Shown piece by piece: positions 10,352-54,140 of a stretch of 64,000 nt of DNA; positions within the stretch are counted from its first letter, which is position 1, and each line of letters opens with the position of its first letter. The notes below the pieces were generated by a model. It worked only from the letters and a program-made list of their open reading frames with translations. It made no database searches and had not been told where the DNA came from. The stretch is from Deroplatys truncata (lineage: Eukaryota; Arthropoda; Insecta; Mantodea; Mantidae). The stretch is taken from contig CM060978.1 in assembly GCA_030765065.1 (NCBI GenBank), forward strand, positions 111,643,692-111,707,691. Direction: 5' to 3'. The translations under genes were made by a program, and so were the position numbers.

Positions 10352-10357
10352 GATGAG
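10352..10357. repeat. Target-site duplication, left copy (GATGAG)
   Basis: GATGAG directly precedes the first base of the left arm (AGTAGAC). The same six bases directly follow the last base of the right arm at 27938-27943. The neighbouring bases differ, so the duplication is exactly 6 bp. Confidence 0.85.
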
Positions 10358-10378
10358 AGTAGACATATTAGGAGAGAT

Positions 10379-10437
10379 CCAGAACAATGGGCTATTGTTC
10401 TGGTCAGAACAAAGGAATCAATGACCTATTGTTCTGA
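10379..10437. repeat. Hairpin-forming sequences at the left tip
   Basis: 10379-10388 (CCAGAACAAT) and 10394-10403 (ATTGTTCTGG) are perfect inverted repeats around a 5-base loop. A second inverted pair follows directly: TCAGAACAA at 10404-10412 and TTGTTCTGA at 10429-10437. The right tip carries the same first hairpin and a slightly decayed second one. The four related CAGAACAA blocks could be recognition sites for a terminal-binding protein; that is inference. Confidence 0.7.
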
Positions 10438-10439
10438 CT

Positions 10440-10870
10440 TCAAGCCCCGCCCCCTCACTTTGAGGCCTCACATGCCGCCCTGGTCGCGTGCCGCTAGCCC
10501 CGCCCCCTCCCTTTGTGGGCTCACCTAATGCCGACTGGGTCTGTGTCGTCAGGTCCTCCCCCCTCCCCCATGTGGTCTGGTCACGTGCCGGTGGAACGCC
10601 CCCCCTCCCAACCCCATACGCTGGGTGGTACCCTCCCTCCCCTTTGTGTTCTGGTTGGTTCCCTGTGGATAGGTGGGAGAGTGTGTATTGTTCCTATACG
10701 GTGACTACATTCCCGCCCCCCTCATTGTGACTTGTCTAAATCTCTGCCGTGTGATTGGTTCCCCTGCGGATATGTGGGAGAGTGTGTATTGTTAGTATAC
10801 GCTGGTGACGTCACTCTGCTCTCATAGCGTCCTGTTTAAATCCCGCCCCTAGTAAGGTGTGTGGTAGGGA
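10440..10870. promoter_or_regulatory. GC-rich subterminal block with repeated promoter-like modules
   Basis: This block is sharply GC-rich against an AT-rich background. It contains two copies of a 'ccccgccccctc' module, each followed by a 'cctttgtgggctcac'-like sequence. It also has two copies of a 'tgggagagtgtgtattgtt' module, inverted CCAAT-type 'gattggttccc' and a perfect CRE-like 'tgacgtca'. An overlapping proline-rich frame has no coding support. The block is preserved at 27430-27855. I infer a subterminal promoter, enhancer or packaging-like region; function is unproven. Confidence 0.5.
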
Positions 10871-12106
10871 ATGTGATTCTCGATGCCTGCCGCACATCGG
10901 CAAAACGTTTGAGTACATAATTGTGTCAATCAATTAGATAATGTTCGTCCATGCATTAAACATTATTGAAAAAAAGAATCGCCATCATATTACTACTAAT
11001 GTCCTAACATTGCATATCTAATGAAACGATGCTCCTCGATCGATGAAAAACAATTAAGTATTTTTGATTGATTAATTGTATATGAATTGACTTGCGCACC
11101 TGCTTCTAAACCCCCATTTTTACATCTACTAATGCCCACAAATTACACTTCTAATGAAACGCGGCTAGTCGGTCGATGAAAACAATTAAGTATTTTTGAT
11201 TGATTAATGTAATTGATTCGCGCGCAACTGCTCGTCATCGTATATGTGTGGTAGCATGTGTATAATTATTACGAGTAATAACATTTATTTAATTCAACTT
11301 TTGAGGGAAAATATATTTTGGATTTATAAGAATATTACAACACTTAGATGAATCCATAGCTGAAAGGACAGAGTTGCCGTAACAGTCGTTATCGCGTGAT
11401 AATTTCACTGAAAACCCGCGCCCATTTCTTCCTCCACGAAACGTCTCACTCGAATGACCGGCTCTCGGTAATTGCAGTGACAAGTCGACTACGGCAAACC
11501 CTCCACTCGCGTTTCTACACCAGCGCGCCAGGTGGTAATATGAGTGAAACTGGTTTTTTCTCTCTGAACCAGCGAGGGTTTCCTCACGGCGCCCCTGGTG
11601 GTCATATCCGAAAGTTGTGAATTCGCCATATTTAAACTCAAGGTGCGCGCAAGGCGGCCATCTTAACTCTATATAATTCAGCGAAATATGATTCCGGAAA
11701 AAAATAAAGGCGAATTAACATTTTAGTTAAATAATACTCGTTTAACATGCGAGGTGCGTTCATATTGTCTCGTTATAATTCCGGAGGAATTGATTATGTA
11801 AAAAATAAATACGGTTAACATTATAGTTTAATATTATAAATGCTATTAAAAATAAAACGATTCGGTTAACATTATAGGTGAATATTACATACGTTATTAA
11901 AAAATAAATAAGGCTCTCGCTGATCGATGAATACAATTAAATATTTTTTATTAATTCATGTAATTGACTTGCGCACCTAGAGCTATCTCACTCATTTTCA
12001 ATAGAAATGTATATAGGTAGAGGCATTCGAGGAAAAATACAGAGCAGGGAATATCAAAAACAGACTTCGGCTCCAACACGTAAACTCTCCCTCTCTCCAT
12101 ACAGAA

Positions 12107-12225
12107 CCTTCACTCTCTGTCTCTCTCCCTCTCTCTCTCTCCCTCTACCTCTCCTTACAAGAAATTCGAAACATGCGCGAAGACCTCAAATATAAATTTG
12201 ATATTCGTTTTTAAATGTTCTCTCT

Positions 12226-12263
<38 letters not shown>

Positions 12264-12340
12264 TACAACAAATTCGAAACATGCGCGAGGACTTCAAATA
12301 TAAATTTGATATTCGTTTTTAAATGTTCTTTCTAAAGACG
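12107..12340. repeat. CT-rich microsatellite with a tandem duplicate
   Basis: CT-rich runs at about 12110-12155 and 12218-12262 each abut a near-identical 'aaattcgaaacatgcgcga' plus 'aaatttgatattcgttttta' segment. This makes a tandem duplication of roughly 110 bp. The right arm shows the same arrangement as GA runs near 25995-26130, with different run lengths. Confidence 0.65.
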
Positions 12341-12479
12341 TAGCGAACTTTGAGAAATTCAACGAATTATTCACTTGCGTACCCTGCTTGAAAGAAATAT
12401 GCTGTACAACCCTGAAGAACGCCTGCGGACTTCTCGGAAGAAGACATGTAGACACTCATTAGAGGACAATGGCAGGCGC

Positions 12480-12600
12480 TTCCACGTCATTAAACATCTT
12501 AAGAGGGTTAGAAGAATGCAAAACAGGGTCCTGTATAGAGCCATTAGTGGACAATGGCAGACGTTTCCCCTTCATTAAACATCCTAAGTGCTCTGAAAAA
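12480..12600. repeat. Short tandem duplication
   Basis: 'caatggcaggcgcttcca' with 'attaaacatcttaag' is followed by a second copy, 'caatggcagacgtttccc' with 'attaaacatcctaag'. The duplication is shared with the right arm at 25670-25795, so it predates formation of the palindrome. Confidence 0.6.
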
Positions 12601-13504
12601 CCACAGACCCTCTGGGTAAATAACTATTAGCGATACAATAGAATTTCTTAATGGCTTCCTCTGTGCAGAAATTCCATCACAAACCGTGGAAAACCAAGTC
12701 TAGTCATGTTTTAAGCTTACCACAAAAATTATTTCCCCGATAATTAATATAAATACTACATGAAGGTTATTAATGATTAAGTTTCATAGCTCTTATTTCT
12801 TTCAATAAAATATTGAATATAACTCAAGCGTTAGGAATATGAAACGGTGAGAAGCACTATTATAATTATAATTAAACGTATACTGTATAGGTTCTGTACT
12901 TAAACATTCGATTGTATCTTTGTCATTATTTAAATACTCACATACAAGAATTGCATGCATGATATAAAAAATTAAACTGATTTTTTTTCGGTATGTTAAA
13001 CAAAGAAATATGATTTGGCGAGAGTAAAAAGTATTCAGAACGGTGAATATTACATATGTTATTAAAAATAAAATAAATAGGTTAACATTACAGTTAAATA
13101 TTACATACGCTATTAAAAATAAATAAGGCTCTCGCTGATCGATGAAAACTATTAAATATTTTTTATTAATTAATTGTATATGAATTGACTTGCGGATTTG
13201 GTTGGTGACGTATGTGCGTGATTATTACGCGTGTATAACTATTACGACTAAAAGCATTTGTTTAATTCTAAATAAATAATGAAATATGGAGCCTATCCTA
13301 AACAATCATCGTTACTCTTAATTTATTCCATTTAAAAAGATTGGCTTATTCTCTTAGTAAACATAGGACGAGAACGATTTTAAATACCTCATCCATTCGA
13401 GAGATATTTTTTGAATATTCCAGCATGTTAAATATAAACTTAATACACACACAAAAATTCATTTCAAGTAATATTTTTCGACATTAAGATTTGCGAATGA
13501 GTTT

Positions 13505-15245
13505 TTACTTTCTCTACTACGTATAGTAAGTAGAGGAAGTGTTGTATTCCACCCAAAAAATCGATACCGAGATTTCACCGGAAATACATGTTTTGAGACC
13601 CTCTGAATCCGAAAAAAGCGTGGCTGTCTGCGAGTGTGCCTGTGAAGCATAACTCAGAAACGAAGAGACGGATAAAACACCAAACTTGGTATTTAGGTTC
13701 AGTATCTTCCAGAGATGCGACACGAAGGTTTTAAAGAAAATGCCCCGCACCAGACTACCCTTTACATGGAACATTTTTCGAAAATTTTAATTTTCTCAAA
13801 ACTGGGTCTAACGATATTGAATAAAATATTATATGTTTAAGATATTGTAATGAGAATTGAAATGTATATCTCGAATTTTCTGGGAATGTCTCCAAAAGTA
13901 TTCTTCATTCTGAACGACTTTTGCAAAACTGATAAACCATAAGAGATAGACAAAATTTTACTACACAAAAAATGGAGATCGCGTTAAAATACATAATTTA
14001 TATCATATACATTCTTGTTGTTGAGTAAACCGTTTTCGAGATATTGCTTGTTATTCCCTTAAAATTTACAATACTTATACTTTTTCTCAAATTCGTTATT
14101 CTTGTTTTTATGTCCTGGACATGCAAAGAGAATGGGATGCGCCACATAGCAACCAGCGTTAAAATGTTTGACTATCGCTTAAAACCTACCATATTCACCT
14201 TGTATCGACATGAAAATTACCAATAACATTGACATCTCGATATCTCGATTAACATGAAGCATATGGAGAATAAGCGATTGTAAAAATAGTTTGTACAAGA
14301 GTAGAGAAAGTCATGTGAGTGTAACACATCAGATTTTTGATATTGGGTTAAATTTTCAAATACTTTTAACTTTTCTCAAGCAGTAACTCGCTATTCATTT
14401 TTCCCGCGGTAATGCATAGACAATAGAATACTAAAGCCATCACATAGCATCAGACTTTTTTTAATTATACTTTTTCTCAAATTCGTTATTCTTGTTTTTA
14501 TGTCCTGGACATGCAAAGAGAATGGAATGCGTCACATAGCAACCAGCGTTAAAATATTTGACTAACGCTTAAAACCTACCATATTCACCTTGTATCGACA
14601 TGAAAATTACCAATAACATTGACATCTCGATATCTCGATTAACATGAAGCATATGGAGAATAAGCGATTGTAAAAATAGTTTGTACAAGAGTAGAGAAAG
14701 TCATGTGAGTGTGACACATCAGATTTTTGATATTGGGTTAAATTTTCAAATACTTTTAACTTTTCTCAAGCGGTAACTCGCTATTCGTTTTTCCCGCGGT
14801 AATGCATAGAGAATAGAATTCTAAAGCCATCACATAGCATCAGGCTTTTTTTAATTATACTTTTTCTCAAATTCGTTATTCTTGTTTTTATGTCCTTGCA
14901 TGCAAAGAGAATGGAATGCGTCACATAGCAACCAGCGTTAAAATATTTGACTATCGCTTAAAACCTACCATATTCCCCTTGCATCGACATGAAAATTACC
15001 AATAACATTGACATCTCGATATCTCGATTAACATGAAGCATATAGAGAATAAGCACTTGTAAAATAGTTTGTACAAGAGTAGAGAAAGTCATGTGAGTGT
15101 AACACATCAGAATTTTGATATTGGTTAAAATTTTCAAATACTTTTAACTTTTCTCAAATGATAACTCGCTATTCGTTTTTCCCGTGATAATGCATAGAGA
15201 ATAGAATTCTAAAGCCATCACATAGCATCAGGCTTTTTTTAAACA
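13505..15245 (+). repeat. DR-1 copy in the left arm with three tandem ~390-bp units
   Basis: The block starts at a 'ctctactacgtatagtaag' quasi-palindrome and shares its order with the dispersed DR-1 copies outside the element. From about 14080 a unit of 385-393 bp is repeated three times. Unit starts are near 14080, 14467 and 14860. Each opens with 'ctcaaattcgttattcttg' and ends 'cacatagcatcagg' plus a T run. The right arm has only two units. Confidence 0.75.
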
Positions 15246-15615
15246 TCTGTGACGTGTCTATTCACAATCGAAAGGTCGCTGGTTCGAGGAAAATTATATC
15301 AACAGAAACAATACATTATTTTCACCCTGTGATTATTTTGGTAATGTAACAATAATTAACAATGAATTTTAGCGGTACATGTAAAAAATAAAATATATTT
15401 TTTATTTCTAGCGTCATATGCAGAATCATTTCCCTTACGACGAGGTGGCGTGATCGATGGATTTCCCCTTAACAGGTTTAGGCTTGCTTACGAAATCCCC
15501 CTGTGCGAGACTAGCATTTTCCCTCTCGTACTCGAATTTTTGGAGTAGCCAATCAAAATCGTTGTATTATATACCATCACACCTCTCACCCCTTCAGCTT
15601 TTATCGGGGAAATGA

Positions 15616-15650
15616 TATAAAAGCAGTAGCTTCTCCGACGATTTTCACTG
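15616..15650 (+). promoter_or_regulatory. Core promoter of gene A, left arm
   Basis: TATAAAAG at 15616-15623 is followed by the initiator-like TCACTG at 15645-15650. The spacing places transcription start near 15647, about 31 bases after the first TATA base and 75 bases before the ATG. The arrangement is conserved in the right arm. Confidence 0.7.
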
Positions 15651-15721
15651 TATTGTGACAACACAGCGAGCTAAGACCTCTGCAAACTTTTCTCATTCAA
15701 AGTGAAATTTCAACGAACATC

Positions 15722-17077
15722 ATGTCTGGTAAGTTGTAACAAAACACTTCATTTACTTTAAAAGTTAAATTATTACTCTGTACATTTAACTTATATTTGC
15801 GTTCATGTTTTTAATGTATGGCATTTATATGCGAATAGCTGAGCATTCTAAAAGTTAATAGCTAGACAGGTGAATTTTCTGAAATGTGAACAGTTTAGTT
15901 AAGTATTCATTTTTAGGCAAGCTTATTCTACATTTAATAGCTAACTGCGCGAATTCTCAAAATGGGAACAATTTAGTTAAGTATTCACCTTGTTGAGTAA
16001 TTATTATTCCAGATATTTAAATACAGGATTTCACAGAGTGAATTATATTCCTTTTGGGGAAAAATACAGTTATTTGAATACCTTATTATCGTTTTGCTTT
16101 AGAATATTACAAAAAGTCTGTTGCGCGAATCATTCGCTCTAACAAAGTAAATATTTACATTATATTAAAACATTTAAATCGAAAAATACAGTACTTAATG
16201 AACTCCATTAGTGAATCAGAACCTCAATTATGTTTACACATATTATCATTTTCAGAAAAAAAGTTAATAATTTTGTAACTTTCAAATAAATGAAATTTTG
16301 TTATGCAACACATTCTCTAATAAAGAATATGTTTTTTTCTCTTCCTTATGCAGCAAGTTTGACATCTCAACTTAACACATTGGCTGAGGGTAGCATTTAC
16401 CCTGCCGTTCAAAGACTACAAGATCTTCAGCCAGAGGAGCCTTATAATATAAAATCCTTAAGAAAAATTGATACGCGATACGGTGCTAGAGTGGTTGCGC
16501 TTTTAGATGATAAGCAAGTGTTTCTACCGACAAGATATTCAACCCTAACAAGCCAACAGCTGGAGGAAATGCCAGGGAAGTTTCAAATGGTATATCATGG
16601 AGTAGTACCAGTCGGCAAGTTTATGACATGTAAATTGTCTTTTCTTCCCGTTAAGGTTTGTAGAAATAATTCAGCTATGCTTTCAAAGCTTCATTTAGAG
16701 TTACATTCGTTGAGTTTATAAATTCACACTTCACTAGGATAACATTTGTCTAAAGTATACATCACTATGTAAAAAAAATAGTCTGGGCGAGGATCTGCAG
16801 AAAGATGTTTAAAGGTCTATTCACTGATTCTTTACCTCAAAGCAGATACCTACAGCAAGTTTCAAATAATTTGCAGTAGGATAGCAGTTGTCAAAAGCAT
16901 GCATTACTGTATTAAAAAAATATGTGTAAATAAGGTCTAGATTGTACTCTGAGTGATTTCGTGCAGAAAGAAGTTTAATACCCCTTGCAATGATTCTCCA
17001 CATCGAAGTATATACCTACAACAGGCTGCAAATAATGTGAATGTGTGTTACAGGAATGCCCAGATGAATGTAAATGA
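15722..17077 (+). CDS. Gene A, left arm: small three-exon protein, unidentified (possible OB-fold)
   Basis: My model has exon 1 at 15722-15728 (ATG TCT G, then a GTAAGT donor), exon 2 at 16354-16655 (after an ATGCAG acceptor) and exon 3 at 17054-17077. Phases join cleanly to give 110 residues ending ...ECPDECK. If the second intron is retained, the frame would instead stop at 16721. The core, about residues 33-64, has a 'TRYGARVVALLDD' beta-hairpin pattern followed by 'VFLPTRY'. A 'FQMVYHG' strand comes later. This alternation of short beta-strands resembles small insect proteins that I suspect have an OB fold and bind single-stranded DNA; that is inference, not recognition of a named family. 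The gene converges on gene B. Reading frame, splice sites and promoter are all kept in the right-arm copy, which supports a real gene. Confidence 0.7.
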
Positions 17078-17553
17078 AGAGGAAGAACGAGATAGCTTAA
17101 AACATCATAAACAGAAATGTGATAGGAACATTCTCAACACCTCTCAGTGACCTCGATCAATGAAGAATTGCACCCCGTACAGCATGGAACATGCATGGAA
17201 AAACATTCGCGTGTGTAGAATATAGCAATAATATATAAATTATGTACTCATTATTACTGCTATACCCGCCCTATACCTTTGATTTCATAAATAATTTCAT
17301 AATTGTTTAAGGAGAATGCAATGTCTTAAAAACATTGATGCTACCTGAAATCTAAACAAGAAATTATTGAACTATTACTGAAAGAGACTTGAATAAATGG
17401 GAATCTAGAAGCCAGAACCATCTTAATATTGGACTGTATGATATGAGGTGTATAAAAAGATTAATAAAAAAATGAGACCTATGTAATATAAACAACATTT
17501 ATTTTTTATAAACATTATCCTATTACATTCCTATACAAAAAAATACATATTTC

Positions 17554-17754
17554 CTAAAGACAAAGGTGATAGTCTAGACATTCAGTTATATAATCATATA
17601 CGTCACACAGAAAGAGACCTGCATTATCCATAACAAAAACTAAACATTTCAACAATGCCTGGATGATGTATTTTATAAGTACAAGTTTTTGATATTTCAA
17701 AGTTCCTGTTATCCAGGGCCGTGATTGATTAACACAATTTCTCGATCCAGTCAT
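17554..17754 (-). CDS. Gene C, left arm: 66-aa frame overlapping the gene B stop
   Basis: The ATG overlaps the stop of gene B as ATGA (17751-17754), a stop-restart arrangement. The 66 residues are basic at the N-terminus, with hydrophobic patches in the middle and acidic and tyrosine-rich residues towards the end; there is no recognised domain. In the right arm the matching frame loses one base in a T-run near 20990 and ends early. C may be a second cistron of the gene B transcript or a chance frame. The evidence is only the overlap and its length, so confidence is low. Confidence 0.3.
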   Translation of the reverse strand: MTGSRNCVNQSRPWITGTLKYQKLVLIKYIIQALLKCLVFVMDNAGLFLCDVYDYITECLDYHLCL

Positions 17755-18218
17755 GCTATAACTTTAGAAACTTTCAGCTTACTTGTAATTTCTTCAATCT
17801 CTTGTGTGTGACTATTATTACCAGCGTCTCTCGATGCAATTAGTAACCTCAATATATTTACTAGTCTATTCGGATTTTCAAGCGTAGATATCACTGAATC
17901 ATCATAATATGAAGATTTCATATTCTCGCGACTTCCGCTGTATCCAGATTTTTCACCAACAGTAGTCTCCAGTGAAGGACAGAGGCTTGATCCGGTATAA
18001 CATCCCCCTCTATACATCTTCGGATCTTCGAGTGTAGGAGAGAGAGTCGATCCAGTATAACATGTTGCTCTATGAAGCTTAAATCTTGACAAAGAACGAT
18101 TCTTAAAAATCCGCGTGCATATACAGCATCTAATAACGCGTTTTCCTCCATGTGTAATGTATGAAAAATTAAGTTTCTCATTCGTTAGTTGCACAGATTT
18201 TCTCTGGCAGTAGCTCAT
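17751..18218 (-). CDS. Gene B, left arm: zinc-finger-like protein, 155 aa
   Basis: This is a single open frame. Residues 31-53 form C-x2-C-x14-H-x3-C (C31, C34, H49, C53) with aromatic and basic residues between, close to a C2H2/C2HC finger but with a long inner loop. A 12-residue repeat CYTGSxLxPxLE follows at 53-64 and 73-84. The C-terminus (about 115-155) is predicted to be helical from its leucine-rich 'NRLVNILRLLIASRD' segment. It is probably a nucleic-acid-binding protein acting in the nucleus, but I do not recognise the family. It runs towards gene A, and their 3' ends lie within about 500 bp, with AATAAA-type signals near 17490. The right-arm copy differs at few residues and has one extra tyrosine codon, so the frame has been kept in both arms. 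Confidence 0.65.
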   Translation of the reverse strand: MSYCQRKSVQLTNEKLNFSYITHGGKRVIRCCICTRIFKNRSLSRFKLHRATCYTGSTLSPTLEDPKMYRGGCYTGSSLCPSLETTVGEKSGYSGSRENMKSSYYDDSVISTLENPNRLVNILRLLIASRDAGNNSHTQEIEEITSKLKVSKVIA

Positions 18219-18280
18219 GCTAAAACTAAAAGAAATTAAATGAATACGTGAATGCTAACGCTCGAAGGAATTAAAAGCGA

Positions 18281-18315
18281 ATGAATGAATTCATAACACG
18301 CAACTATGTATATAT
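18281..18315 (-). promoter_or_regulatory. Core promoter of gene B, left arm
   Basis: TATATA at 18309-18314 on the minus strand is followed about 28 bases later by an initiator-like TCATTC. The same pair is at 20310-20341 in the right arm. The 5' leader then runs about 65 bases to the gene B ATG. Confidence 0.55.
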
Positions 18316-18630
18316 CCAGGGTGAGGACGGCGGAGGGAATCGCGATCTATGCATAGCAGCGGTAAAGGATACTCTCTTGAAACATTAGTCATCTAGACAA
18401 CTATTGTTCACGGAGCCAGTAGACGTCAGGTTGAATGGGACAGACCTCAGGTTCAAATCTTTAAGGGGTACGGGCCCCGCCCTTTTGCCTGCCATGTCTC
18501 CTAAACCATCCTAACAGCGTAACATTACATTACAACGCCGCGTAAACAGAACATGGCGAGTGCGAGCATGGAAAAAGGATGCTCTCTGGAAACACTCGTC
18601 ATCTGCACAACGGATTGTTCCTATCATTTC

Positions 18631-18870
18631 ACTATTTCAGACCGTTCAATATCGTGACGCGTCTCTGTCATCTACATTTCGATGAATTTTTACCTCCTAA
18701 ATTAAGGTTTGGTGCTCTGTATAGATTTGCACAACTTGCATTACGCTGTGTGTCCCTAGCGTTTCCAGCTCCTGAATTGTTCCATTTAGTGGACTACCTC
18801 TACCATCTTCATGTCAACGATCTGTTACTCTGAATTAAAGTTTGGGTCTGTATAGATCTGTACAACTTGC
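18631..18870. other. Unique part of the palindrome spacer
   Basis: Sequence between the left arm and the minisatellite. It contains two copies of a 'ctgtatagatytgyacaact' plus 'tgcattacgct' phrase (about 18718-18755 and 18847-18880). The second runs into the first minisatellite unit, so the array may have grown from this phrase. No gene is supported. Confidence 0.5.
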
Positions 18871-19955
18871 ATTACGCTATGTAACAGTCTCATCACGCTA
18901 TGTAACGACCTGATCACGCTATGTAACAGTCTCATCACGCTATGTAACAACCTGATCACGCTATGTAACAGACTCATCACGCTGTGTAACAGACTCATCA
19001 CGCTATGTAACAGACTCATCACACTATGTAACAGACTCATCACGCTACGTAACAACCTGATCACGATATGTAACAGACGCATCACGCTATGTAACAACCT
19101 GATCACGCTATGTAACAGACTCATCACGCTATGTAACAACCTGATCACGCTATGTAACAGTCTCATCACGCTATGTAACAGACTCATCACGCTATGTAAC
19201 AGACTCATCACGCTACGTAACAACCTGATCACGATATGTAACAGACGCATCACGCAATGTAACAACCTGATCACGCTATGTAACAGACTCATCACGCTAT
19301 GTAACAACCTGATCACGCTATGTAACAGTCTCATCACGCTATGTAACAGACCTATCACGCTATGTAACAACCTCATCACGCTATGTAACAGACTCATCAC
19401 GCTATGTAACAGACTCATCACGCTGCGTAACAACCTGATCACGCTATGTAACAGACTCATCACGCTATGTAACAACCTGATCAAGCTATGTAACAGTCTC
19501 ATCACGCTATGTAACAGACTCATCACGCTATGTAACAAACTCATCACGCTACGTAACAGACTCATCACGCTATGTAACAGACTCATCACGCTATGTAACA
19601 ACCTGATCACGCTATGTAACAGACTCATCACGCTATGTAACAGACTCATCACGCTATGTAACAGACTCATCACGCTATGTAACAACCTGATCACGATATG
19701 CAACAACCTGATCACGCTATGTAACAGTCTCATCACGCTATGTAACAACCTGATCACGCTATGTAACAGACTCATCACGCTATGTAACAACCTGATCACG
19801 CTATGTAACAGTCACATCACGCTATGTAACAGTCTCATCACGCTATGTAACAGACTCATCACGCTATGTAACAGACTCATCACGCTATGTAACAACCTGA
19901 TCACGATATGTAACAGACTCATCACGCTATGTAACAACCTGATCACGCTATGTAA
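18871..19955. repeat. 21-bp minisatellite at the centre of the palindrome (about 52 copies)
   Basis: The unit CACGCTATGTAACAGACTCA(T) repeats head to tail for about 1085 bp. Three variants dominate, ending AGACTCAT, AACCTGAT and AGTCTCAT. A longer periodicity is visible: a block starting 'cacgctacgtaacaacc' at 19041 recurs at 19209, which is 168 bp or 8 units later, with the same order of variants. Because 21 is divisible by three, the minus strand is open through most of the array as a seven-residue LLHSVxx repeat; I do not treat that as a gene. Confidence 0.9.
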
Positions 19956-20309
19956 TAACGCCTGGAAATGATAGGAACAATCCGTTGTGCAGATGACGAG
20001 TGCTTCCAGAGGGCACCCTTTTCCACGAATGTTTCCAGAGAGCATCCTTTTTCCATGCTCGCACTCGCCATGTTCTGTTTACGCGGCGTTGTAATGTAAT
20101 GTTACGCTGTTAGGATGGTTTAGGAGACATGACAGGCAAAAGGGCGGGGCCCGTACCCCTTAAAGATTTGAACCTGAGGTCTGTCCCATTCAACCTGACG
20201 TCTACTGGCTCCGTGAACAATAGTTGTCTAGATGACTAATGTTTCAAGACAGTATCCTTTCCCGCTGCTATGCATAGATCGCGATTCCCTCCGCCGTCCT
20301 CACCCTGGA

Positions 20310-20342
20310 TATATACATAGTTGCGTGTTATGAATTCATTCA
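20310..20342 (+). promoter_or_regulatory. Core promoter of gene B, right arm
   Basis: TATATA starts at 20310 and an initiator-like TCATTC lies at 20336-20341. The leader then runs to the ATG at 20406 and includes two TTTTAG motifs just before it. Those could be an acceptor site if an upstream non-coding exon exists. Confidence 0.55.
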
Positions 20343-20405
20343 TTCGCTTTTAATTCCTTCGAGCGTTAGCATTCACGTATTCATTTAATTTCTTTTAGTT
20401 TTAGC

Positions 20406-20876
20406 ATGAGCCACTGCCGGAGAAAATCTGTGCAACTAACGAATGAGAAACTTAATTTTTCATACATTACACATGGAGGAAAACGCGTTATTGGATGCTG
20501 TATATGCACGCGGATTTTTAAGAATCGTTCTTTGTCAAGATTTAAGCTTCATAGAGCAACATGTTATACTGGATCGTCTCTCTCCCCTACACTCGAAGAT
20601 CCGAAGATGTATAGAGGGGGATGTTATACCGGATCAAGCCTCTGTCCTTCACTGGAGACTACTGTTGGTGAAAAATCTGGATACAGCGGAAGTCGCGAGA
20701 ATATGAAATCTTATTATTATTATGATGATTCAGTGATATCTACGCTTGAAAATCCGAATAGACTAGTAAATATATTGAGGTTACTAATTGCATCGAGAGA
20801 CGCTGGTAATAATAGTCACACACAAGAGATTGAGGAAATTACAAGTAAGCTGAAAGCTTCTAAAGTTATAGCATGA
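20406..20876 (+). CDS. Gene B, right arm: zinc-finger-like protein, 156 aa
   Basis: Second copy of gene B. The C-x2-C-x14-H-x3-C finger, both CYTGS-type repeats and the leucine-rich C-terminal helix are all kept. Differences from the left copy are a handful of substitutions (for example R to G just before the first finger cysteine) and one extra tyrosine in the YYYYDD run. No stops or frameshifts have arisen despite clear nucleotide divergence between arms. That is consistent with constraint or recent gene conversion. The family is unrecognised; a nucleic-acid-binding role is inferred from the finger only. Confidence 0.65.
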   Translation: MSHCRRKSVQLTNEKLNFSYITHGGKRVIGCCICTRIFKNRSLSRFKLHRATCYTGSSLSPTLEDPKMYRGGCYTGSSLCPSLETTVGEKSGYSGSRENMKSYYYYDDSVISTLENPNRLVNILRLLIASRDAGNNSHTQEIEEITSKLKASKVIA

Positions 20877-21073
20877 CAGGATCGAGAAATTGTGTTAATC
20901 AATCACGGCCCTGGATAACAGGAACTTTGAAATATCAAAAACTTGTACTTATAAAATACATCATCCAGACATTGTTGAGATGTTTAGTTTTTTTATGGAT
21001 AATGCAGGTCTCTTTCTGTGTGATGTATATGATTATATAACTGAATGTCTAGACTATCACCTTTGTCTTTAGG
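20873..21073 (+). pseudogene. Gene C, right arm: frameshifted copy
   Basis: The ATG again overlaps the gene B stop (ATGA). A single-base loss in the T-run near 20990, relative to the left arm, shifts the frame and ends it early. If C is real it is functional only in the left arm; if it was never coding, this simply reflects lack of constraint. Confidence 0.3.
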
Positions 21074-21549
21074 AAATATGTATGTTTTTTGTATAGGAAT
21101 GTAATAGGATAATGTTTATAAAAAATAAATGTTGTTTGTATTACATAGGTCTCATTTTTTTATTAATCTTTTTATACACCTCATATCATACAGTCCAATA
21201 TTAAGATGGTTATGGCTTCTAGATTCCCATTTATTCAAGTCTCTTTCAGTAATAGTTCAATAATTTTTTGTTTAGATTTCAGGTAGCATCAACGTTTTTA
21301 AGATATTGCATTCTCCTTAAACAATTATGAAATTATTTATGAAATCAAAGGTATAGGGCGGGTATAGCAGTAATAATGAGTACATAATTTATATATTATT
21401 GCTATATTCTACACACACGAATGTTTTTCCATGCATGTTCCATGCTGTACGGGGTGCAATTCTTCATTGATCGAGGTCACTGAGAGGTGTTGAGAATGTT
21501 CCTATCACATTTCTGTTTATGATGTTTTAAGCTATCTCGTTCTTCCTCT

Positions 21550-22917
21550 TCATTTACATTCATCTTGGCATTCCTGTAACACACATTCACATTATTTGCA
21601 GCTTGTTGTAGGTATATACTTCGATGTGGAGAATCATTGCAAGGGGTATTAAACTTCTTTCTGCACGAAATCACTCAGAGTACAATCTAGACCTTATTTA
21701 CACATATTTTATTTAATACAGCAATGCATGCTTTTGACAACTGCTATCCTACTGCAAATTATTTGAAACTTGCTGTAGGTATCTGCTTTGAGGTAAAGAA
21801 TCAGTGAATAGACCATTAAACTTCTTTCTGCAGATCCTCGCCCAGACTACATCCAAGGCGTTTTTTTTACTTAGTGATGTATACTTTAGACAAATGTTAT
21901 CCTAGTGAAGTGTGAATTTATAAACTCAACGAATGTAACTCTAAATGAAGCTTTGAAAGCATAGTTGAATTATTTCTACAAACCTTAACGGGAAGAAAAG
22001 ACAATTTACATGTCTTAAACTTGCCGACTGGTACTACTTCATGATATACCATTTGAAACTTCCCTGGCATTTCCTCCAGCTGTTGGCTTGTTAGGGTTGA
22101 ATATCTTGTCGGTAGAAACACTTGCTTATCATCTAAAAGCGCAACCACTCTAGCACCGTATCGCGTATCAATTTTTCTTAAGGATTTTATATTATAAGGC
22201 TCCTCTGGCTGAAGATCTTGTAGTCTTTGAACGGCAGGGTAAATGCTACCCTCAGCCAAAGTGTTAAGTTGAGATGTCAAACTTGCTGCATTAGGAAGAG
22301 AAAAAAGTATATTCTTTATTAGAGAATGTGTTGCATAACAAAATTTCATTTATTTGAAAGTTACAAAATTATTAACTTTTTTTCTGAAAATGATAATATG
22401 TGTAAACATAATTGAGGTTCTGATTCACTAATGGAGTTCATTAAGTACTGTATTTTTCGATTTAAATGTTTTAATATAATGTAAATATTTACTTTGTTAG
22501 AGCGAATGATTCGCGCAACAGACTTTTTGTAAAATTCTAAAGCAAAACGTTAATAAGGTATTCAAATAACTGTATTTTTCCCCAAAAGGAATATAATTCA
22601 CTCTGTGAAATCCTGTATTTAAATATCTGGAATAATAATTACTCAACAAGGTGAATACTTAACTAAATTGTTCCCATTTTGAGAATTAGCGCAGTTAGCT
22701 ATTAAATGTAGAATAAGCTTGCCTAAAAATGAATACTTAACTAAACTGTTCACATTTCAGAAAATTCACCTGTCTAGCTATTAACTTTTAGAATGCTCAG
22801 CTATTCGCATATAAATGCCATACATTAAAAACAAGAACGCAAATATAAGTTAAATGTACAGAGTAATAATTTAACTTTTAAAGTAAATGAAGTGTTTTGT
22901 TACAACTTACCAGACAT
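21550..22917 (-). CDS. Gene A, right arm: small three-exon protein, unidentified (possible OB-fold)
   Basis: Exons on the minus strand are 22917-22911, 22285-21984 and 21573-21550, with the same lengths, phases and splice dinucleotides as the left copy. The protein is again 110 residues and ends ECQDECK. Changes relative to the left arm are few (G to E after 'VYH', M to K in the following strand, P to Q near the end). The intron sequences have diverged at least as much. Retention of the frame and all splice sites in both copies is the best evidence that this is a genuine spliced gene. Function is not established; a possible OB-fold or single-strand-binding role is inference from the strand pattern. 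Confidence 0.7.
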
Positions 22918-22987
22918 GATGTTCGTTGAAATTTCACTTTGAATGAGAAAAGTTTGCAGAGGTCTTAGCTCGCTGTGTTGTCACAAT

Positions 22988-23023
22988 ACAGTGAAAATCG
23001 TCGGAGAAGCTACTGCTTTTATA
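22988..23023 (-). promoter_or_regulatory. Core promoter of gene A, right arm
   Basis: Minus-strand TATAAAAG at 23023-23016, followed by TCACTG about 31 bases downstream, is identical in layout to 15616-15650. Confidence 0.7.
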
Positions 23024-23399
23024 TCATTTCCCCGATAAAAGCTGAAGGGGTGAGAGGTGTGATGGTATATAATACAACGATTTTGATTGGCTACTCCAAA
23101 AATTCGAGTACGAGAGGGAAAATGCTAGTCTCGCACAGGGGCATTTCGTAAGCAAGCCTAAACCTGTTATGGGGAAATCCATCGATCACGCCACCTCGTC
23201 GTAAGGGAAATGATTCTGCATATGACGCTAGAAATAAAAAATATATTTTATTTTTTACATGTACCGCTAAAATTCATTGTTAATTATTGTTACATTACCA
23301 AAATAATCACAGGGTGAAAATAATGTATTGTTTCTGTTGATATAATTTTCCTCGAACCAGCGACCTTTCGATTGTGAATAGACACGTCACAGATGTTTA

Positions 23400-24760
23400 A
23401 AAAAAAGCCTGATGCTATGTGATGGCTTTGGAATTCTATTCTCTATGCATTACCACGGGAAAAACGAATAGCGAGTTATCATTTGAGAAAAGTTAAAAGT
23501 ATTTGAAAATTTTAACCAATATCAAAATTCTGATGTGTTACACTCACATGACTTTCTCTACTCTTGTACAAACTATTTTACAAGTGCTTATTCTCTATAT
23601 GCTTCATGTTAATCGAGATATCGAGATGTCAATGTTATTGGTAATTTTCATGTCGATGCAAGGGGAATATGGTAGATTTTAAGCGATAGTCAAATATTTT
23701 AACGCTGGTTGCTATGTGACGCATTCCATTCTCTTTGCATGTCCAGGACATAAAAACAAGAATAACGAATTTGAGAAAAAGTATAATTAAAAAAAGCCTG
23801 ATGCTATGTGATGGCTTTAGGATTCTATTGTCTATGCATTACCGCGGGAAAAATGAATAGCGAGTTACTGCTTGAGAAAAGTTAAAAGTATTTGAAAATT
23901 TAACCCAATATCAAAAATCTGATGTGTTACACTCACATGACTTTCTCTACTCTTGTACAAACTATTTTTACAATCGCTTATTCTCCATATGCTTCATGTT
24001 AATCGAGATATCGAGATGTCAATGTTATTGGTAATTTTCATGTCGATACAAGGTGAATATGGTAGGTTTTAAGCGATAGTCAAATATTTTAACGCTGGTT
24101 GCTATGTGGCGCATCCCCATTCTCTTTGCATGTCCAGGACATAAAAACAAGAATAACGAATTTGAGAAAAAATATAAGTATTGGAAATTTTAAGGGAATA
24201 ACAAGCAATATCTCGAAAACGGTTTACTCAACAACAAGAATGTATATGATATAAATTATGTATTTTAACGCGATCTCCATTTTTTTGTGTAGTAAAATTT
24301 TGTCTATCTCTTATGGTTTATCAGTTTTGCATAAGTCGTTCAGAATGAAGAATACTTTTGGAGACATTCCCAGAAAATTCGAGATATACATTTCAATTCT
24401 CATTACAATATCCTATACTTGTAATATTTTATTCAATATCGTTAGACCCAGTTTTGAGAAAATTAAAATTTTCGAAAAATGTTCCATATAAAGGGTAGTC
24501 TGGTGCGGCGCATTTTCTTTAAAACCTTCGTGTCGCATCTCTGGAAGATACTGAATCTAAATACCAAGTTTGGTGTTTTATCCGTCTCTTCGTTTCTGAG
24601 TTATGCTTCACAGGCACACTCGCAGACAGCCATGCTTTTTTTCGGATTCAGAGGGTCTCAAAACATGTATTTCCGGTGAAATCTCGGTATCGATTTTTTT
24701 GGGTAGAATACAACACTTCCTCTACTTACTATACGTAGTAGAGAAAGTAAAAACTCATTC
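23400..24760 (-). repeat. DR-1 copy in the right arm with two tandem ~390-bp units
   Basis: Mirror of 13505-15245 but with two units (starts near 24170 and 23780 on the minus strand) instead of three. Open frames in it (for example a 102-aa frame at 24603-24911) have no domain signature and simply cross the repeat. Confidence 0.75.
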
Positions 24761-24999
24761 GCAAATACTTAATGTCGCAAAAATATTACTTGAAATGAAT
24801 TTTTGTGTGTGTATTAAGTTTATATTTAACATGCTGGAATATTCAAAAAATATCTCTCGAATGGATGAGGTATTTAAAATCGTTCTCGACCTATGTTTAC
24901 TAAGAGAATAAGCCAATCTTTTTAAATGGAATAAATTAAGAGTAACGAGGATTGTTTAGGATAGGCTCCATATTTCATTATTTATTTAGAATTAAACAA

Positions 25000-27430
25000 A
25001 TGCTATTAGTCGTAATAGTTATACACGCGTAATAATCACGCACATACGTCACCAACCAAATCCGCAAGTCAATTCATATACAATTAATTAATAAAAAATA
25101 TTTAATTGTTTTCATCGATCAGCGAGAGCCTTATTTATTTTTAATAGCGTATGTAATATTTAACTATAATGTTAACCTATTTATTTTATTTTTAATAACA
25201 TATGTAATATTCACCGTTCTGAATACTTTTTACTCTCGCCAAATCATATTTCTTTGTTTAACATACCGAAAAAAAATCAGTTTAATTTTTTATATCATGC
25301 ATGCAATTCTTGTATGTGAGTATTTAAATAATGACAAAGATGCAATCGAATGTTTAAGTACAGAACCTATACAGTATACGTTTAATTATAATTATAATAG
25401 TGCTTCTCACCGTTTCATATTCCTAACGCTTGAGTCATATTCAATATTTTATTGAAAGAAATAAGAGCTATGAAACTTAATCATTAATAACCTTCATGTA
25501 GAATTTATATTAATTATCGGGGAAATAATTTTTGTGGTAAGCTTAAAACATGACTAGACTTGGTTTTCCACGGTTTGTGATGGAATTTCTGCACAGAGGA
25601 AGCCATTAAGAAATTCTATTGTATCGCTAATAGTTATTTACCCAGAGGGTCTGTGGTTTTTCAGAGCACTTAGGATGTTTAATGAAGGGGAAACGTCTGC
25701 CATTGTCCACTAATGGCTCTATACAGGACCCTGTTTTACATTCTTCAAACCCTCTTAAGATGTTTAATGACGTGGAAGCGTCTGCCATTGTCCTCTAATG
25801 AGTGTCTACATGTCTTCTTCCGAGAAGTCCGCAGGCGTTCTTCAGGGTTGTACAGCATATTTCTTTCAAGCAGGGTACGCAAGTGAATAATTCGTTGAAT
25901 TTCTCAAAGTTCGCTACGTCTTTAGAAAGAACATTTAAAAACGAATATCAAATTTATATTTGAGGTCCTCGCGCATGTTTCGAATTTCTTGTAAAGAGAG
26001 AGAGAGAGAGAGAGGGAGAGAGAACATTTAAAAACGAATATCAAATTTATATTTGAGGTCTTCGCGCATGTTTCGAATTTCTTGTAAGGAGAGGTAGAGG
26101 GAGAGAGAGAGACAGAGAGTGAAGGTTCTGTATGGAGAGAGGGAGAGTTTACGTGTTGGAGCCGAAGTCTGTTTTTGATATTCCCTGCTCTGTATTTTTC
26201 CTCGAATGCCTCTACCTATATACATTTCCATTGAAAATGAGTGAGATAGCTCTAGGTGCGCAAGTCAATTACATGAATTAATAAAAAATATTTAATTGTA
26301 TTCATCGATCAGCGAGAGCCTTATTTATTTTTAATAACGTATGTAATATTTAACTATAATGTTAACCGCATTTATTTATTTTTTTAATAACATATGTAAT
26401 ATTCACCTATAATGTTAACCGAATCGTTTTATTTTTAATAGCATTTATAATATTAAACTATAATGTTAACCGTATTTATTTTTTTCATAATCAATTCCTC
26501 CGGAATTATAACGAGACAATATGAACGCACCTCGCATGTTAAACGAGTATTATTTAACTAAAATGTTAATTCGCCTTTATTTTTTTCCGGAATCATATTT
26601 CGCTGAATTATATAGAGCTAAGATGGCCGCCTTGCGCGCACCTTGAGTTTAAATATGGCGAATTCACAACTTTCGGATATGACCACCAGGGGCGCCGTGA
26701 GGAAACCCTCGCTGGTTCAGAGAGAAAAAACCAGTTTCACTCATATTACCACCTGGCGCGCTGGTGTAGGTTGCGAACTGAAACGCGAGTGGAGGGCGTG
26801 CCGTAGTCGACTTGTCACTACACTGGCCGAGAATCGTTCACACCAGTCTGGCGCTCCATGGAGGAAAGGGCTCTGCGCGGGTTTTCAGCGAAATTATCAC
26901 ACGATAACGACTGTTACGGCAACTCTGTCCTTTCAGCTATGGATTCATCTAAGTGTTGTAATATTCTTATAAATCCAAAATACATTTTCCCTCAAAAGTA
27001 GAATTAAATAAATGTTATTACTCGTAATAATTATACACATGCTACCATACATATACGATGACGAACAGTTGCGCGCGAATCAATTACATTAATCAATCAA
27101 AAATACTTAATTGTTTTCATCGACCGACTAGCCGCGTTTCATTAGAAGTGTAATTTGTGGGCATTAGTGGATTTAAAAATGGGGGTTTAGAAGCAGGTGC
27201 GCAAGTCAATTCATATACAATTAATCAATCAAAAATACTTAATTGTTTTTCATCGATCGAGGAGCATCGTTTCATTAGATATGCAATGTTAGGACATTAG
27301 TAGTAATATGATGGCGATTCTTTTTTCAATAATGTTTAATGCATGGACGAACATTATCTAATTGATTGACACAATTATGTACTCAAACGTTTTGCCGATG
27401 TGCGGCAGGCATCGAGAATCACATTCCCTA
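25000..27430. other. Outer right arm: repeats, no additional gene seen
   Basis: Mirror of 10870-13300. It holds the four AT-rich motifs (near 25080, 26260, 27070 and 27210), GA-rich microsatellites near 25995-26130 and the short tandem duplication at 25670-25795. A 109-aa frame at 26643-26972 is not preserved in the left arm, so I do not call it. Confidence 0.5.
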
Positions 27431-27855
27431 CCACACACCTTACTAGGGGCGGGATTTAAACAGGACGCTATGAGAGCAGAGTGACGTCACCAGCGTATAC
27501 TAACAATACACACTCTCCCACATATCCGCAGGGGAACCAATCACACGGCAGAGATTTAGACAAGTCACAATGAGGGGGGCGGGAATGTAGTCACCGTATA
27601 GGAACAATTCACACTCTCCCACCTATCCACAGGGAACCAACCAGAACACAAAGGGGAGGGAGGGTACCACCCAGCGTATGGGGTTGGGAGGGGGGGCAGG
27701 CCACCGGCACGTGACCAGACCACATGGGGGAGGGGGGAGGACCTGACGACACAGACCCAGTCGGCATTAGGTGAGCCCACAAAGGGAGGGGGCGGGGCTA
27801 GCGGCACGCGACCAGGGCGGGATGTGAGGCCTCAAAGGGAGGGGGCGGGGCTTGA
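27430..27855. promoter_or_regulatory. GC-rich subterminal block, right arm
   Basis: Mirror of 10440-10870, with the same GC boxes, CRE-like palindrome and duplicated 'aacaatacacactctccca' modules. It is about 98 percent identical by eye. Confidence 0.5.
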
Positions 27856-27894
27856 AGTCAGATCAATAGGTCATTAATTCCTTTTTCCTGACCA

Positions 27895-27919
27895 GAACAA
27901 TAGCCCATTGTTCTGGATC
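27895..27919. repeat. Right tip hairpin
   Basis: CCAGAACAAT and ATTGTTCTGG flank the 5-base loop AGCCC. This is the reverse complement of the left tip hairpin at 10379-10403. Confidence 0.7.
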
Positions 27920-27937
27920 TCTCCTAATATGTCTACT

Positions 27938-27943
27938 GATGAG
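27938..27943. repeat. Target-site duplication, right copy (GATGAG)
   Basis: Directly follows the terminal GTCTACT of the right arm and equals 10352-10357. Confidence 0.85.
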
Positions 27944-31009: not shown

Positions 31010-31412
31010 GGCCGGAGTTAATCGATAAAATATTAAAATCTTCCGGACTGGAAGGCCGTGGTCTAAGGGTAAAACTAATAGCACCCGAGGTTTCGGTCAA
31101 CTCTGTGGTTGCCATCTTCAAGAGTGTAACACCCAGGACAGCTTGATAACGACTGCCAACTAGGCAACTTATGTTCCGCAATTTATAGCTCACGCCAAGG
31201 TCAAAACTGCCGCATGATTAGTGGGTCTGCAGTGGCGTGTCATCGCTGGTATCCACGTGCGATTGAGCTTAAATTTTTCTTCCTTTTTATTAAAGTTGTT
31301 GGAGTGTTTATAAATTTCAATTGCTTCTATATGAAGTCTAGTGTGATAATATTTTGTGAAGATAGTACTTGCGTGTCTTCATATAGGATACGATGACCCA
31401 TAGTAACAAAAT
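31010..31412 (-). pseudogene. Penelope-like element 3' end: GIY-YIG C-terminus plus end repeat
   Basis: On the minus strand, about 31412-31335 reads 'MGHRILYEDTQVLSSQ'-like sequence. A frame change near 31330 follows, and then 31327-31190 is open and ends in a stop: 'EAIEIYKH.NNFN' and 'FKLNRTWIPA'. This is the characteristic tail of the GIY-YIG endonuclease domain of Penelope-like elements. The next ~180 bases contain 'ttgaagatggcaacc' and 'gttgaccgaaacctcggg', the kind of conserved sequence found in Penelope end repeats. They resemble a decayed hammerhead core. The reverse transcriptase and most of the endonuclease are missing. Confidence 0.65.
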
Positions 31413-31439: not shown

Positions 31440-32940
31440 ATATACCTCCACTAATTAATCAAATTAACAACACGATAGCTGAAACCCCTCAGGCCAAGGC
31501 GGAGGTCTTGGTATCGAATCTTGAAGACACCTTCAAGCCCAACCCCCTAAGGGGGCAAGCTAATCAAATACAAGAAATTGAGAACGAAATAGATCAAACA
31601 GACTATTCAATCACACATAATAAAATGCGAAAAACTAATGTAGGTGAAATAGCTCGGATCATCGCCCACCTGCCCAATAGGAAGGCTCCCGAGCCTGACG
31701 AAATACCCAATGCAGTTCTAAAGAATCTCCCGCGGGGAGCGCTACTGCTCATAGCCAAAATATTTAATTACACCCTAGACAAAGGTAGATTCCCGCCACA
31801 AAGGAAAGTGGCACAAATTATAATGCTCCCGAAGCAAAACAAAATCTAAAGTTAACAGCAAGCTACAGGCCAATTAGCCTATTATACACAATTGGGAAAG
31901 TATTAGAAAAAGTGATTATAATACGAATGAATTCACACATTCTGAAAAACAACCTTCTAGTCCCAGAACAATTTAGTTTAAGGTCCCAGCACTCGACGAC
32001 GCTTAAACTTTTACGGTTAACAGAATTAATCACCAAAGGTTTCAATGCCAATAAATCAACGGGAGCCATTTTCTTAGATATCGAGCGTGCTTTTGATAAG
32101 GTATGGCATGCGGGCCCCGTTCATAAACTCAAGTCACTCAACTTTGCAGACTCTATGATAGCTCTTATCAGAGATTACCTTAGCGAACGTCAGTTTCGAG
32201 CAGCGGTGGAGAATTCCTCCTCCTCCCTTAGACCTATCAGGGCGGGAGTTCCACAAGGAAGTTTGCTCGAACCGACACTCCTTAATCTATACATTAAGGA
32301 CATGCCAGAACTCACACGTACTGAAAAATACATATACGCCGATGATACGGCGTTAGTAACGCAGTCCACACAGTCCAGGATATTACACCTACGGCTCCCG
32401 AATGCCCTAAATGAGTTAGAGCCATTGTACACAAAATGGCGAATTAAAATAAACACCAACAAATGCCAGTCAATTTTTACCAAAAGAGTGCACCACAGAC
32501 TACCCAGACATGCGCAACCGTCCTTGGCATACAAGGGCGAAAGAACAGTGTGGAAGAACCAGGTAACCTATTTAGGTGTTACTATGGACCAAGGTCTCAC
32601 CTGGAAACAACACATAAATAGCGTAAGGGCAAAGGCCAATGACCAGCTAAACAAACTCTACCCTACCATTAACAGCAACAGCCAACTTCAACTAAACATG
32701 TGCCTCACGGTATATAAAACGCTAATAAGTCCCATAATAACTTATGCAGCACCAGTTTGGGGATATGCTGCAAAGTCACACCTACATAGGCTACAAACCC
32801 TTTAAAGCAGAATAATTAGAGTTATAGCGAAACTCCCGCCGGTCCCTCCGGCGTATCTGCTTCACGAGGAGCTAAAGCTTCACTCTATAGAAGAATTCAT
32901 TAAGCTACAAAGCTATAACATACAACGGGAAGAACAAAAA
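31440..32940 (+). pseudogene. Jockey-type non-LTR retrotransposon reverse transcriptase, broken
   Basis: The first frame (31508-31849) carries the fingers region with 'LPNRKAPEPDEIPN', a variant of the usual APGPDGI motif, then 'RKVAQIIMLPKQNK'. A frameshift near 31850 moves the coding to 31912-32805. That part has 'GAIFLDIERAFDKVWH' (catalytic D), 'AGVPQGSLLEP', YADD at the active site, and a 'TYLGVTMDQGLTWKQHI' thumb. A stop at 32805 interrupts the tail, which continues in frame as 'SRIIRVIAKLP' to about 32980. There is no endonuclease or ORF1, so the copy is 5'-truncated. It is dead as written. It lies between two inverted Penelope-type ends. Confidence 0.85.
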
Positions 32941-33964: not shown

Positions 33965-34120
33965 CTCGAAAAAGCCCAGTTGGCATTCGTTATCAAGCTG
34001 TCCTGGGTGTTACACTCTTGAAGATGGCAACCAAAGAGTTGACCGAAACGTTGGGTGCTAGTAATTTTATCCTTAGACCACGATCTTCCAGACCGGAAGA
34101 CTTTAGTATTTTATCGAGTA
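33965..34120 (+). repeat. Penelope-type end repeat, inverted relative to 31010-31170
   Basis: 'cagctgtcct'-like sequence from 'ttatcaagctgtcctggg' through 'cttgaagatggcaacc', 'gagttgaccgaaacg' and 'gatcttccagaccggaag' matches the reverse complement of 31015-31166 with few changes. No coding sequence precedes it that I can assign to the GIY-YIG domain. Confidence 0.65.
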
Positions 34121-36823: not shown

Positions 36824-37476
36824 TGCATGGTAGGTCATAACAAATTCATATAACTTTATTTTTCTAAACCATTTTTCTCTTACTCTCCCCATATATTCTC
36901 CTATTCTTTTTATATCCCTCTCCTTTTGTATTTTCATTAATCTAACTTTTAATACTTCTTTGTTAACATTCTCCCATTCTTTAGGTAAAAACTGCCACGA
37001 CTTAGTTTCTTCACATTCAAGTATATAATGCAAATCATTATCTGCCTCTCCACAAAGAGGACATCTATCCAAAATCGCTCCCTTCCTATCTCCCCTTAGC
37101 CTATGTGCACTTAATCTAGACCAGGCCCACCCATCTCTCACTAACCTATTACCTACATCCACATACTTCTCCCTTCCCCAGTCCACCTTTAATTGTCTAT
37201 ATAGTTCCAAACTTTTCTTTCCTTCCAGACTTTGAAATAATTCTTGTTTCTCTATTTCTTCTACTCTGTTCCTCACTTCTTTCCAGAAACCTTTAAATAA
37301 CCCCTCTCTCTCTCCTCCCATAAATTACCAATTCCCATTTCCTGTAAAATTCTCTTTATTCCTTGAGCCCAGTTCATCCCATCATTGGATTTTTCTTGTA
37401 TTATTAAACATTGCTTCAAGATATTCTCGTCCAATGATTTCAACCTATGCCAAAATTTAAGTATCCTTTCTACTAT
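36824..37476 (-). pseudogene. Non-LTR reverse transcriptase remnant, C-terminal part
   Basis: Downstream part of the reverse transcriptase that begins at 38534. 37476-37330 reads 'IVERILKFWHRLKS' onwards. A one-base shift in the GA-rich stretch near 37310 moves coding to the frame ending at 36821. That frame has a tail zinc knuckle, 'CPLCGEADNDLHYILEC' (C-x2-C-x7-H-x4-C), typical of several LINE reverse-transcriptase C-termini. The family cannot be fixed from this part alone. It is separated from its upstream half by the insertion at 37477-38244. Confidence 0.65.
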
Positions 37477-49279: not shown

Positions 49280-49299
49280 GAATAAAAGGGATAAACTGT

Positions 49300-52870: not shown

Positions 52871-52873
52871 ATT

Positions 52874-54082: not shown

Positions 54083-54083
54083 A

Positions 54084-54136: not shown

Positions 54137-54140
<4 letters not shown>

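Follow-up and report, generated by a model that had tools for sequence, protein, structure and literature searches.

A stretch of 64,000 nucleotides from the mantis Deroplatys truncata (positions 111,643,692 to 111,707,691 of contig CM060978.1), here called the window, contains a nearly palindromic element of 17580 bp at 10358-27937. The element is flanked on both sides by the target site duplication (TSD) GATGAG, and its tips, AGTAGACATATTAGGAGAG, lie in inverted orientation at 10358 and 27937. BLASTN aligned 10358-18630 with 27937-19965 in inverted orientation, as two overlapping pieces, which gives arms of 8273 and 7973 bp around a short spacer. The arms account for 16246 of the 17580 bp (92.4%), the long-arm, short-middle form of foldback transposons. 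An earlier sequence-only reading of the window had described these duplications, tips, arms and spacer and had put the share of the terminal inverted repeats (TIRs) at 92 percent; both descriptions were confirmed by sequence and BLASTN. The first 20 bases of the tip were found at no other site in the window with up to 5 mismatches allowed, and no match was obtained when the window was scanned against Rfam and for tRNA genes. The features of the element are as follows.

10352-10357, no strand: TSD GATGAG, left (sequence).
10358-18630, plus strand: left arm, 8273 bp (inverted BLASTN match to 27937-19965).
10358-10362, plus strand: tip AGTAG (terminal sequence).
10358-16082, plus strand: gapped colinear match to the polymerase-side end of full Polintons (identity by main block 75-95%).
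10379-10438, plus strand: two adjacent subterminal hairpins (z -4.0), nearly invariant across 12 other left tips fetched.
11395-11498, no strand: patch of 26 arm differences in 104 bp (arm alignment and fetched relatives).
13502-15260, plus strand: dispersed repeat; further copies elsewhere in the window (61-80%), and a copy at the corresponding position of the compared Polintons.
15722-15728, plus strand: predicted exon 1 of gene 1, ATGTCTG, common to the Polinton polymerase-side leader (sequence).
15729-16353, plus strand: predicted intron of gene 1, GTAAG...AG (sequence).
16354-16721, plus strand: exon 2 of gene 1, left arm, for a predicted OB-fold protein resembling single-stranded DNA (ssDNA)-binding proteins.
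17751-18218, minus strand: gene 2, left arm, open frame of 155 amino acids.
18631-19964, no strand: spacer (loop), 1334 bp, containing a 21-bp tandem array of 51.7 copies at 18870-19955.
19965-27937, minus strand: right arm, 7973 bp (inverted BLASTN match to the left arm).
20406-20876, plus strand: gene 2, right arm copy, open, 156 amino acids.
21921-22289, minus strand: exon 2 of gene 1, right arm copy.
27938-27943, no strand: TSD GATGAG, right (sequence).

Elements with the same tips were sought in the genome assembly (4.29 Gb, 818 contigs) with a 300-bp tip query, and the best 40 of 2915 first-look candidates were scored. By eye, these 40 rows comprised the window element and 14 further inverted pairs, with 10 rows left unpaired. 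Pieces of 12 of the 14 tip pairs were examined, and both ends were present in 10 of the 12. Perfect 6-bp duplications flanked all 11 insertions with both ends, the window included; the other ten read GCCGTG, GACGCT, TATATA, GATGTA, CATGAG, GTCGCG, CGCTGG, GTGAGG, CATATT and CATCCC. The left tip of the insertion C16:469.2 was altered (AGAGA). The sequence-only reading had proposed a search for more copies of these tips flanked by 6-bp duplications and for full Polintons that end in them; the genome contains both.

Indeed, 7 of the 12 tip pairs were Polintons with capsid, phospholipase A2 (PLA2), ATPase, integrase, a 201-amino-acid open reading frame (ORF) and polymerase; in several of them at least one frame was interrupted. 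Pfam was applied to C14:9.87 and C1:191, and the other five were analysed by tblastn with the C14 proteins. The double jelly-roll (DJR) capsid family (PF21738) was detected with E values of 4.7e-109 in C14:9.87 and 1.6e-110 in C1:191, and both also had PLA2 with Adeno_PX, Pox_A32 and rve. The TIRs were 435-690 bp long in the five of the seven Polintons measured, two of them cut by the fetched stretch. We take the 906-amino-acid Polinton ORF to be the polymerase from the motifs DINNLYG, NNAVYGK and YTDTDS, read by eye; it gave no polymerase match in Pfam (E <= 0.1), NCBIfam (E <= 1) or a PDB sequence search (E <= 1). Among the best 120 of 1358 proteins found with the capsid protein, an organism was named in 10 rows, all insects.

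In each arm, the outer ~5.7 kb are colinear with the polymerase-side end of these Polintons. The leader exon ATGTCTG and the beginning of the intron belong to this common stretch, and the homology stops at 16082, within the predicted intron of gene 1. From 16082 inward follows sequence that bears gene 1 and has no counterpart in the compared Polintons. Next, 17750-17877 corresponds to the C-terminal tail of the Polinton ORF just upstream of the integrase (33 of 41 residues, 80%), with order and strand kept, and further inward lie the N-terminal part of gene 2, which was not found in Polintons, and the 21-bp array. As judged from sequence, other genes thus take the place of the polymerase and integrase, and the half-element is mirrored. 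This is an inverted duplication of one end, as in snap-back defective genomes, with both arms matching the polymerase-side end. The dispersed repeat at 13502-15260 includes a 390-bp tandem with 3 copies in the left arm and about one fewer in the right arm. An insertion of this repeat (13.5-15.2 kb) into the element was considered and dropped, because the compared Polintons have it at the same place.

A classical foldback element from a different superfamily of DNA transposons (P/Galileo, Mutator or hAT) would likewise have long, internally repetitive arms and a short middle, and the Polinton features would then have arisen by chance. Foldbacks of the P, Mutator and hAT superfamilies make TSDs of 7-10 bp, and the length of the Galileo TSD differs from that of the element. 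The 6-bp TSD and the tips common with Polintons place the element outside these groups, and together with the first exon and the ~5.7 kb per arm, which are likewise common to full Polintons, they are decisive; we give this explanation next to no credence.

When the C14 capsid, PLA2, ATPase, integrase and polymerase proteins were compared with the whole window, no tblastn match at E <= 1e-3 was obtained; the sole match of C14 proteins in the window was the 41-residue tail, which is present in both arms. Also, 33 queries, representing 31 distinct larger ORFs from the left arm and the spacer, were scanned against Pfam, and none reached a curated cut-off; no capsid, PLA2, ATPase, integrase or polymerase family was seen in the scanned ORFs. 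A DUF948 match on the array ORF (2.6e-5) was under its cut-off and repeat-derived, and was discarded. The view that the usual replication and capsid genes are missing therefore held at the tblastn threshold, but the element is not free of genes, since each arm has two open ones. Because no Polinton core genes were detected in the element and integrase genes sit behind the same tips, a Polinton derivative that uses an integrase from elsewhere, as first suggested in the sequence-only reading, is the natural inference. Judged by the genes it carries, the element is a satellite derived from Polintons and not itself a Polinton.

Gene 1 is preceded by a TATA-like box near 15619 (by eye), upstream of exon 1, and its predicted product after splicing has 124 amino acids. 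In the predicted model the strand order matches OB folds, and Foldseek matched it to a model of a phage single-stranded DNA-binding protein (SSB) with an E value of 1.3e-4, the PDB matches being weak; no family stood out in the VIA list. From the modelled fold, gene 1 looks like a replication accessory (ssDNA-binding-like) protein, and its product may be an ssDNA-binding protein that coats displaced strands. Changes common to at least two rows were 17 synonymous and 9 replacement, and singletons were 7 synonymous and 11 replacement, several of them within one broken copy. These counts hint at constraint on gene 1 while the element was active, at a weak Fisher p of 0.12 for copies from a list ranked by protein score. 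Gene 2 encodes a CxxC-x12-HxxxxC finger near its N-terminus (by eye), and its last 41 amino acids are the tail homologous to the Polinton ORF upstream of the integrase. A relationship of the finger to the Polinton polymerase ORF was considered, but the comparison gave no support. Neither gene had relatives in the protein database at E <= 0.01 or a match in PHROGs, and in viral contigs no relative of gene 1 or of the tip was found.

A MAFFT alignment of the two arms of the window element contained 122 substitutions and 21 gaps. Outside the patch at 11395-11498, the arms differed at 96 of 7755 positions (1.24%). These differences were evenly spread, with a variance/mean of 1.13 in 250-bp bins, which is near Poisson; the longest difference-free run was 435 bases, compared to a mean of 410 in 2000 random placements, and was reached in 32% of them. 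Because of this even spread, the picture is one of arms that were once identical and then drifted. Within the patch, the left version had best matches of 91-96% to other elements. The right-arm version is the odd one, with at most 80% identity to any fetched relative, and it looks as if converted from a distant copy.

The genome contains other elements of this kind. At C7:201.2 we found a second palindrome, with arms 99.4% identical over 7793 bp; protein identity is 92-93% for genes 1 and 2 in its left copy, and its right gene 1 is broken. Two insertions, C1:163.0 (L017/L018) and C16:469.2 (L033/L034), are asymmetric: one side bears genes 1 and 2, the other integrase remnants, accompanied in C1:163.0 by polymerase remnants. 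Both carry the 21-bp array, and they may be either recombinants or ancestors of the palindromes. A 5-kb short form with the same tips (C4:203.56, L035; TIR ~965 bp, TSD CATCCC) gave no match to any tested gene, and the complex C13:47.3, of which 10 kb are available, has gene 2 and, in those 10 kb, no gene 1 match. The motif of the 21-bp array was found in the window spacer and at 12 fetched loci, every one part of a gene-1-carrying element, and in none of the fetched Polinton loci.

The arrangement of gene 1 copies in the assembly was analysed as well. The best 150 of 7169 candidates were scored for gene 1 and, as a control, the best 97 of 13320 for the capsid gene; these candidate totals are loose first-look counts, not copy numbers, and give no guide to the abundance of satellites versus Polintons. 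For gene 1, 120 of the 150 matches formed 60 +/- pairs, 2.7-12.7 kb apart, and 30 had no partner among the matches listed; no arrangement within 20 kb other than +/- was seen among the best 150. The capsid gene formed only 3 pairs (6 of 97 matches), all -/+, with 91 unpaired. The notion of a lone oddity thus gave way to 60 inverted gene 1 pairs among the matches listed. The three capsid pairs lie at C9:40749603/40764353, C4:95173183/95185028 and C10:54203724/54213077 and have equal scores within each pair; they are possibly mirror-image Polintons of the other end.

For 12 copies (10 from the gene 1 list, the window and C7:201), ~1.07 kb around gene 1 was compared between arms. The arms differed by 0-1.52% within a copy, in 4 of the 12 by less than 0.2%, and by a median of 2.44% (minimum 0.56%) between copies. 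One arm was nearer to another copy than to its own partner in three copies (WIN, C16_252 and C16_427), and the partner arm tied with another copy in C6_49 and C7_201. Private variants were found at 34 sites in both arms of one copy and at 65 in one arm, and 4 sites that are variable elsewhere too separated the arms. The tree showed 9 of the 12 arm pairs as sisters (four above the tool's star, one identical and four with bootstraps of 91-94; range 91-100 or identical); three were not resolved, and none was contradicted with support.

The loops read were six fetched ones, that of the window and part of that of C7:201. The same arm/loop junction was present on both sides in the window, C4_200, C16_86, C16_427 and C16_252, that is, in all five copies read in the window's clade, on two contigs, the loops measuring 305-3401 bp. 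Sister arms were seen in four of the five, C16_252 being the copy not resolved. C2_11 had a different arm/loop junction, and no inverted pair was found in the loop pieces analysed of C12_2 and C7_201. The ends of C16_86 were not found at the positions where the window has tips.

Chimeric reads are known to produce false palindromes, and an assembly artefact of this origin, or two adjacent insertions joined tail to tail, could imitate such an element. However, an artefact gives no direct duplications at its outer flanks, the arms differ by 1.24%, tips are absent at the centre, and the same junction recurs at five loci on two contigs, besides the 60 inverted gene 1 pairs. The divergence argument against a simple assembly fold-back made in the sequence-only reading is therefore strengthened by the flanking duplications, the ten further insertions with perfect 6-bp duplications and the second palindrome, and an artefact or tail-to-tail pair is extremely improbable.

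Because five copies have one junction and yet arms group by copy, the palindrome within the window's clade is, on the sequences compared, inherited as such, with its arms re-equalised along the lines of descent. If instead every palindrome was made anew by snap-back of the end of an asymmetric master, palindromes would not breed palindromes. Arm differences in the window that resemble drift from identical arms would fit, as would the existence of the asymmetric C1:163.0 and C16:469.2, with genes 1 and 2 opposite integrase remnants (in C1:163.0 also polymerase remnants), and the three inverted capsid gene pairs hint at new mirror copies of the other end. A fresh origin from a parent is expected of snap-back defective genomes, but one junction on both sides of all five copies in the window's clade is not expected from new folding, which makes this explanation unlikely. 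Slightly less likely still is that palindromes are inherited and their arms kept alike after insertion by chromosomal gene conversion from arm to arm, the ordinary process that keeps the arms of Y-chromosome palindromes alike. Such conversion would also yield the 34 private variants present in both arms. The differences in the window element are, however, not clustered, as seen from the near-Poisson spread and the unexceptional longest run, and arms less than 0.2% apart in 4 of 12 copies are what young insertions would have.

We consider it probable that the element is a non-autonomous, mirror-image Polinton derivative that is likely replicated and inserted by helpers and whose arms are probably equalised in each round via hairpin repair. 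The helpers would be the Polintons of the same genome with the same tips and 6-bp duplications: their polymerase likely replicates the element and their integrase likely inserts it, and the tips and subterminal hairpins may be the sites read by both enzymes. Snap-back copying of one end may have given rise to the first palindrome. The mode of replication expected of Polintons is protein-primed strand-displacement synthesis, although we know of no animal Polinton whose replication cycle has been watched. Strand displacement would be the source of single strands, each of which could fold into one long hairpin; the arms would pair, mismatch repair would equalise them, and copying would restore the duplex. 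Equalisation would then occur during replication and not after insertion, and single-strand fold-back replication would be the simplest process giving both inheritance and re-equalisation. A hairpin replication intermediate had already been proposed from the sequence; the homogenisation from arm to arm lends it support, and the step itself remains inferred. A further-reaching version, to which we give slightly less than an even chance, is a heritable hairpin lifestyle of a virus-derived family in which the unit of inheritance is half an element, one arm being rewritten from the other by way of a full-length hairpin in every round of replication. Such an element would have its own ssDNA-binding protein and a satellite array as loop and would parasitise Polintons as satellites do helper viruses.

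Elsewhere, the window contains a LINE-type retrotransposon on the minus strand (45590-50616), in which a 438-amino-acid ORF is followed by one of 1229 amino acids with endonuclease, reverse transcriptase and RNase H. A 147-bp inverted repeat (90%; 31019-31165 and 33974-34120) encloses a reverse transcriptase ORF at 31912-32805, and at 37476-38244, 52870-55218 and 57101-57874 lie members of a family of dispersed repeats, variously oriented, that contain tandem units of 36 bp.

No such element was described in the literature searched (titles and beginnings of abstracts of the top-ranked results of larger sets). A mirror-image satellite that is present in high copy, with a single conserved junction and re-equalised arms, would be a natural record of Polinton replication, and the intermediates to be expected from it are full-length hairpins. 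Such a satellite would further mean that Polintons have parasites of their own, as viruses do, and that eukaryotic mobile DNA can be stable and amplified in the form of a large palindrome.

With Polintons/Mavericks (adintovirus-like), the element has in common the AGTAG-type tips, the 6-bp TSD, the total size, the subterminal sequence, the leader exon and the polymerase-side end; it differs in that the protein-primed family B polymerase, RVE integrase, packaging ATPase and DJR capsid protein were undetected by tblastn (E <= 1e-3). For vertebrate Mavericks, the sections of PMC8097293 used here give the end motifs (AGT)2 and (AG)3, the former matched by the window tip AGTAGA in 5 of 6 letters, and TIRs of 46-1447 bp in intact copies, compared to ~8 kb in the element. 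Foldback elements such as Galileo have very long, internally repetitive inverted arms as well, but Galileo is assigned to the P superfamily (PMC4168063, PMC3573991), and its tips and relatives differ from those of the element.

Snap-back defective genomes are known from adenovirus, too. Snapback genomes of adeno-associated virus (AAV; PMC8235507) resemble the element in having one genome end inverted and duplicated around a loop and in their likely dependence on a helper. Snap-back viral genomes differ in that the palindrome described here has become fixed in a lineage, sits in chromosomes and has been amplified, and copies of it have one junction in common. The rice Mothra Helitrons (PMC4683698, abstract) are likewise high-copy, non-autonomous relatives of a self-replicating element that keep its termini and have tandem repeats, and their putative mother element encodes a replication protein A (RPA)-like ssDNA-binding protein and no RepHel. 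Mothra is a Helitron whose abstract mentions no palindrome, whereas here the gene follows a Polinton leader exon, twice in mirror image. As far as that abstract goes, the Mothra family with its RPA-like gene is the nearest functional parallel to the element.

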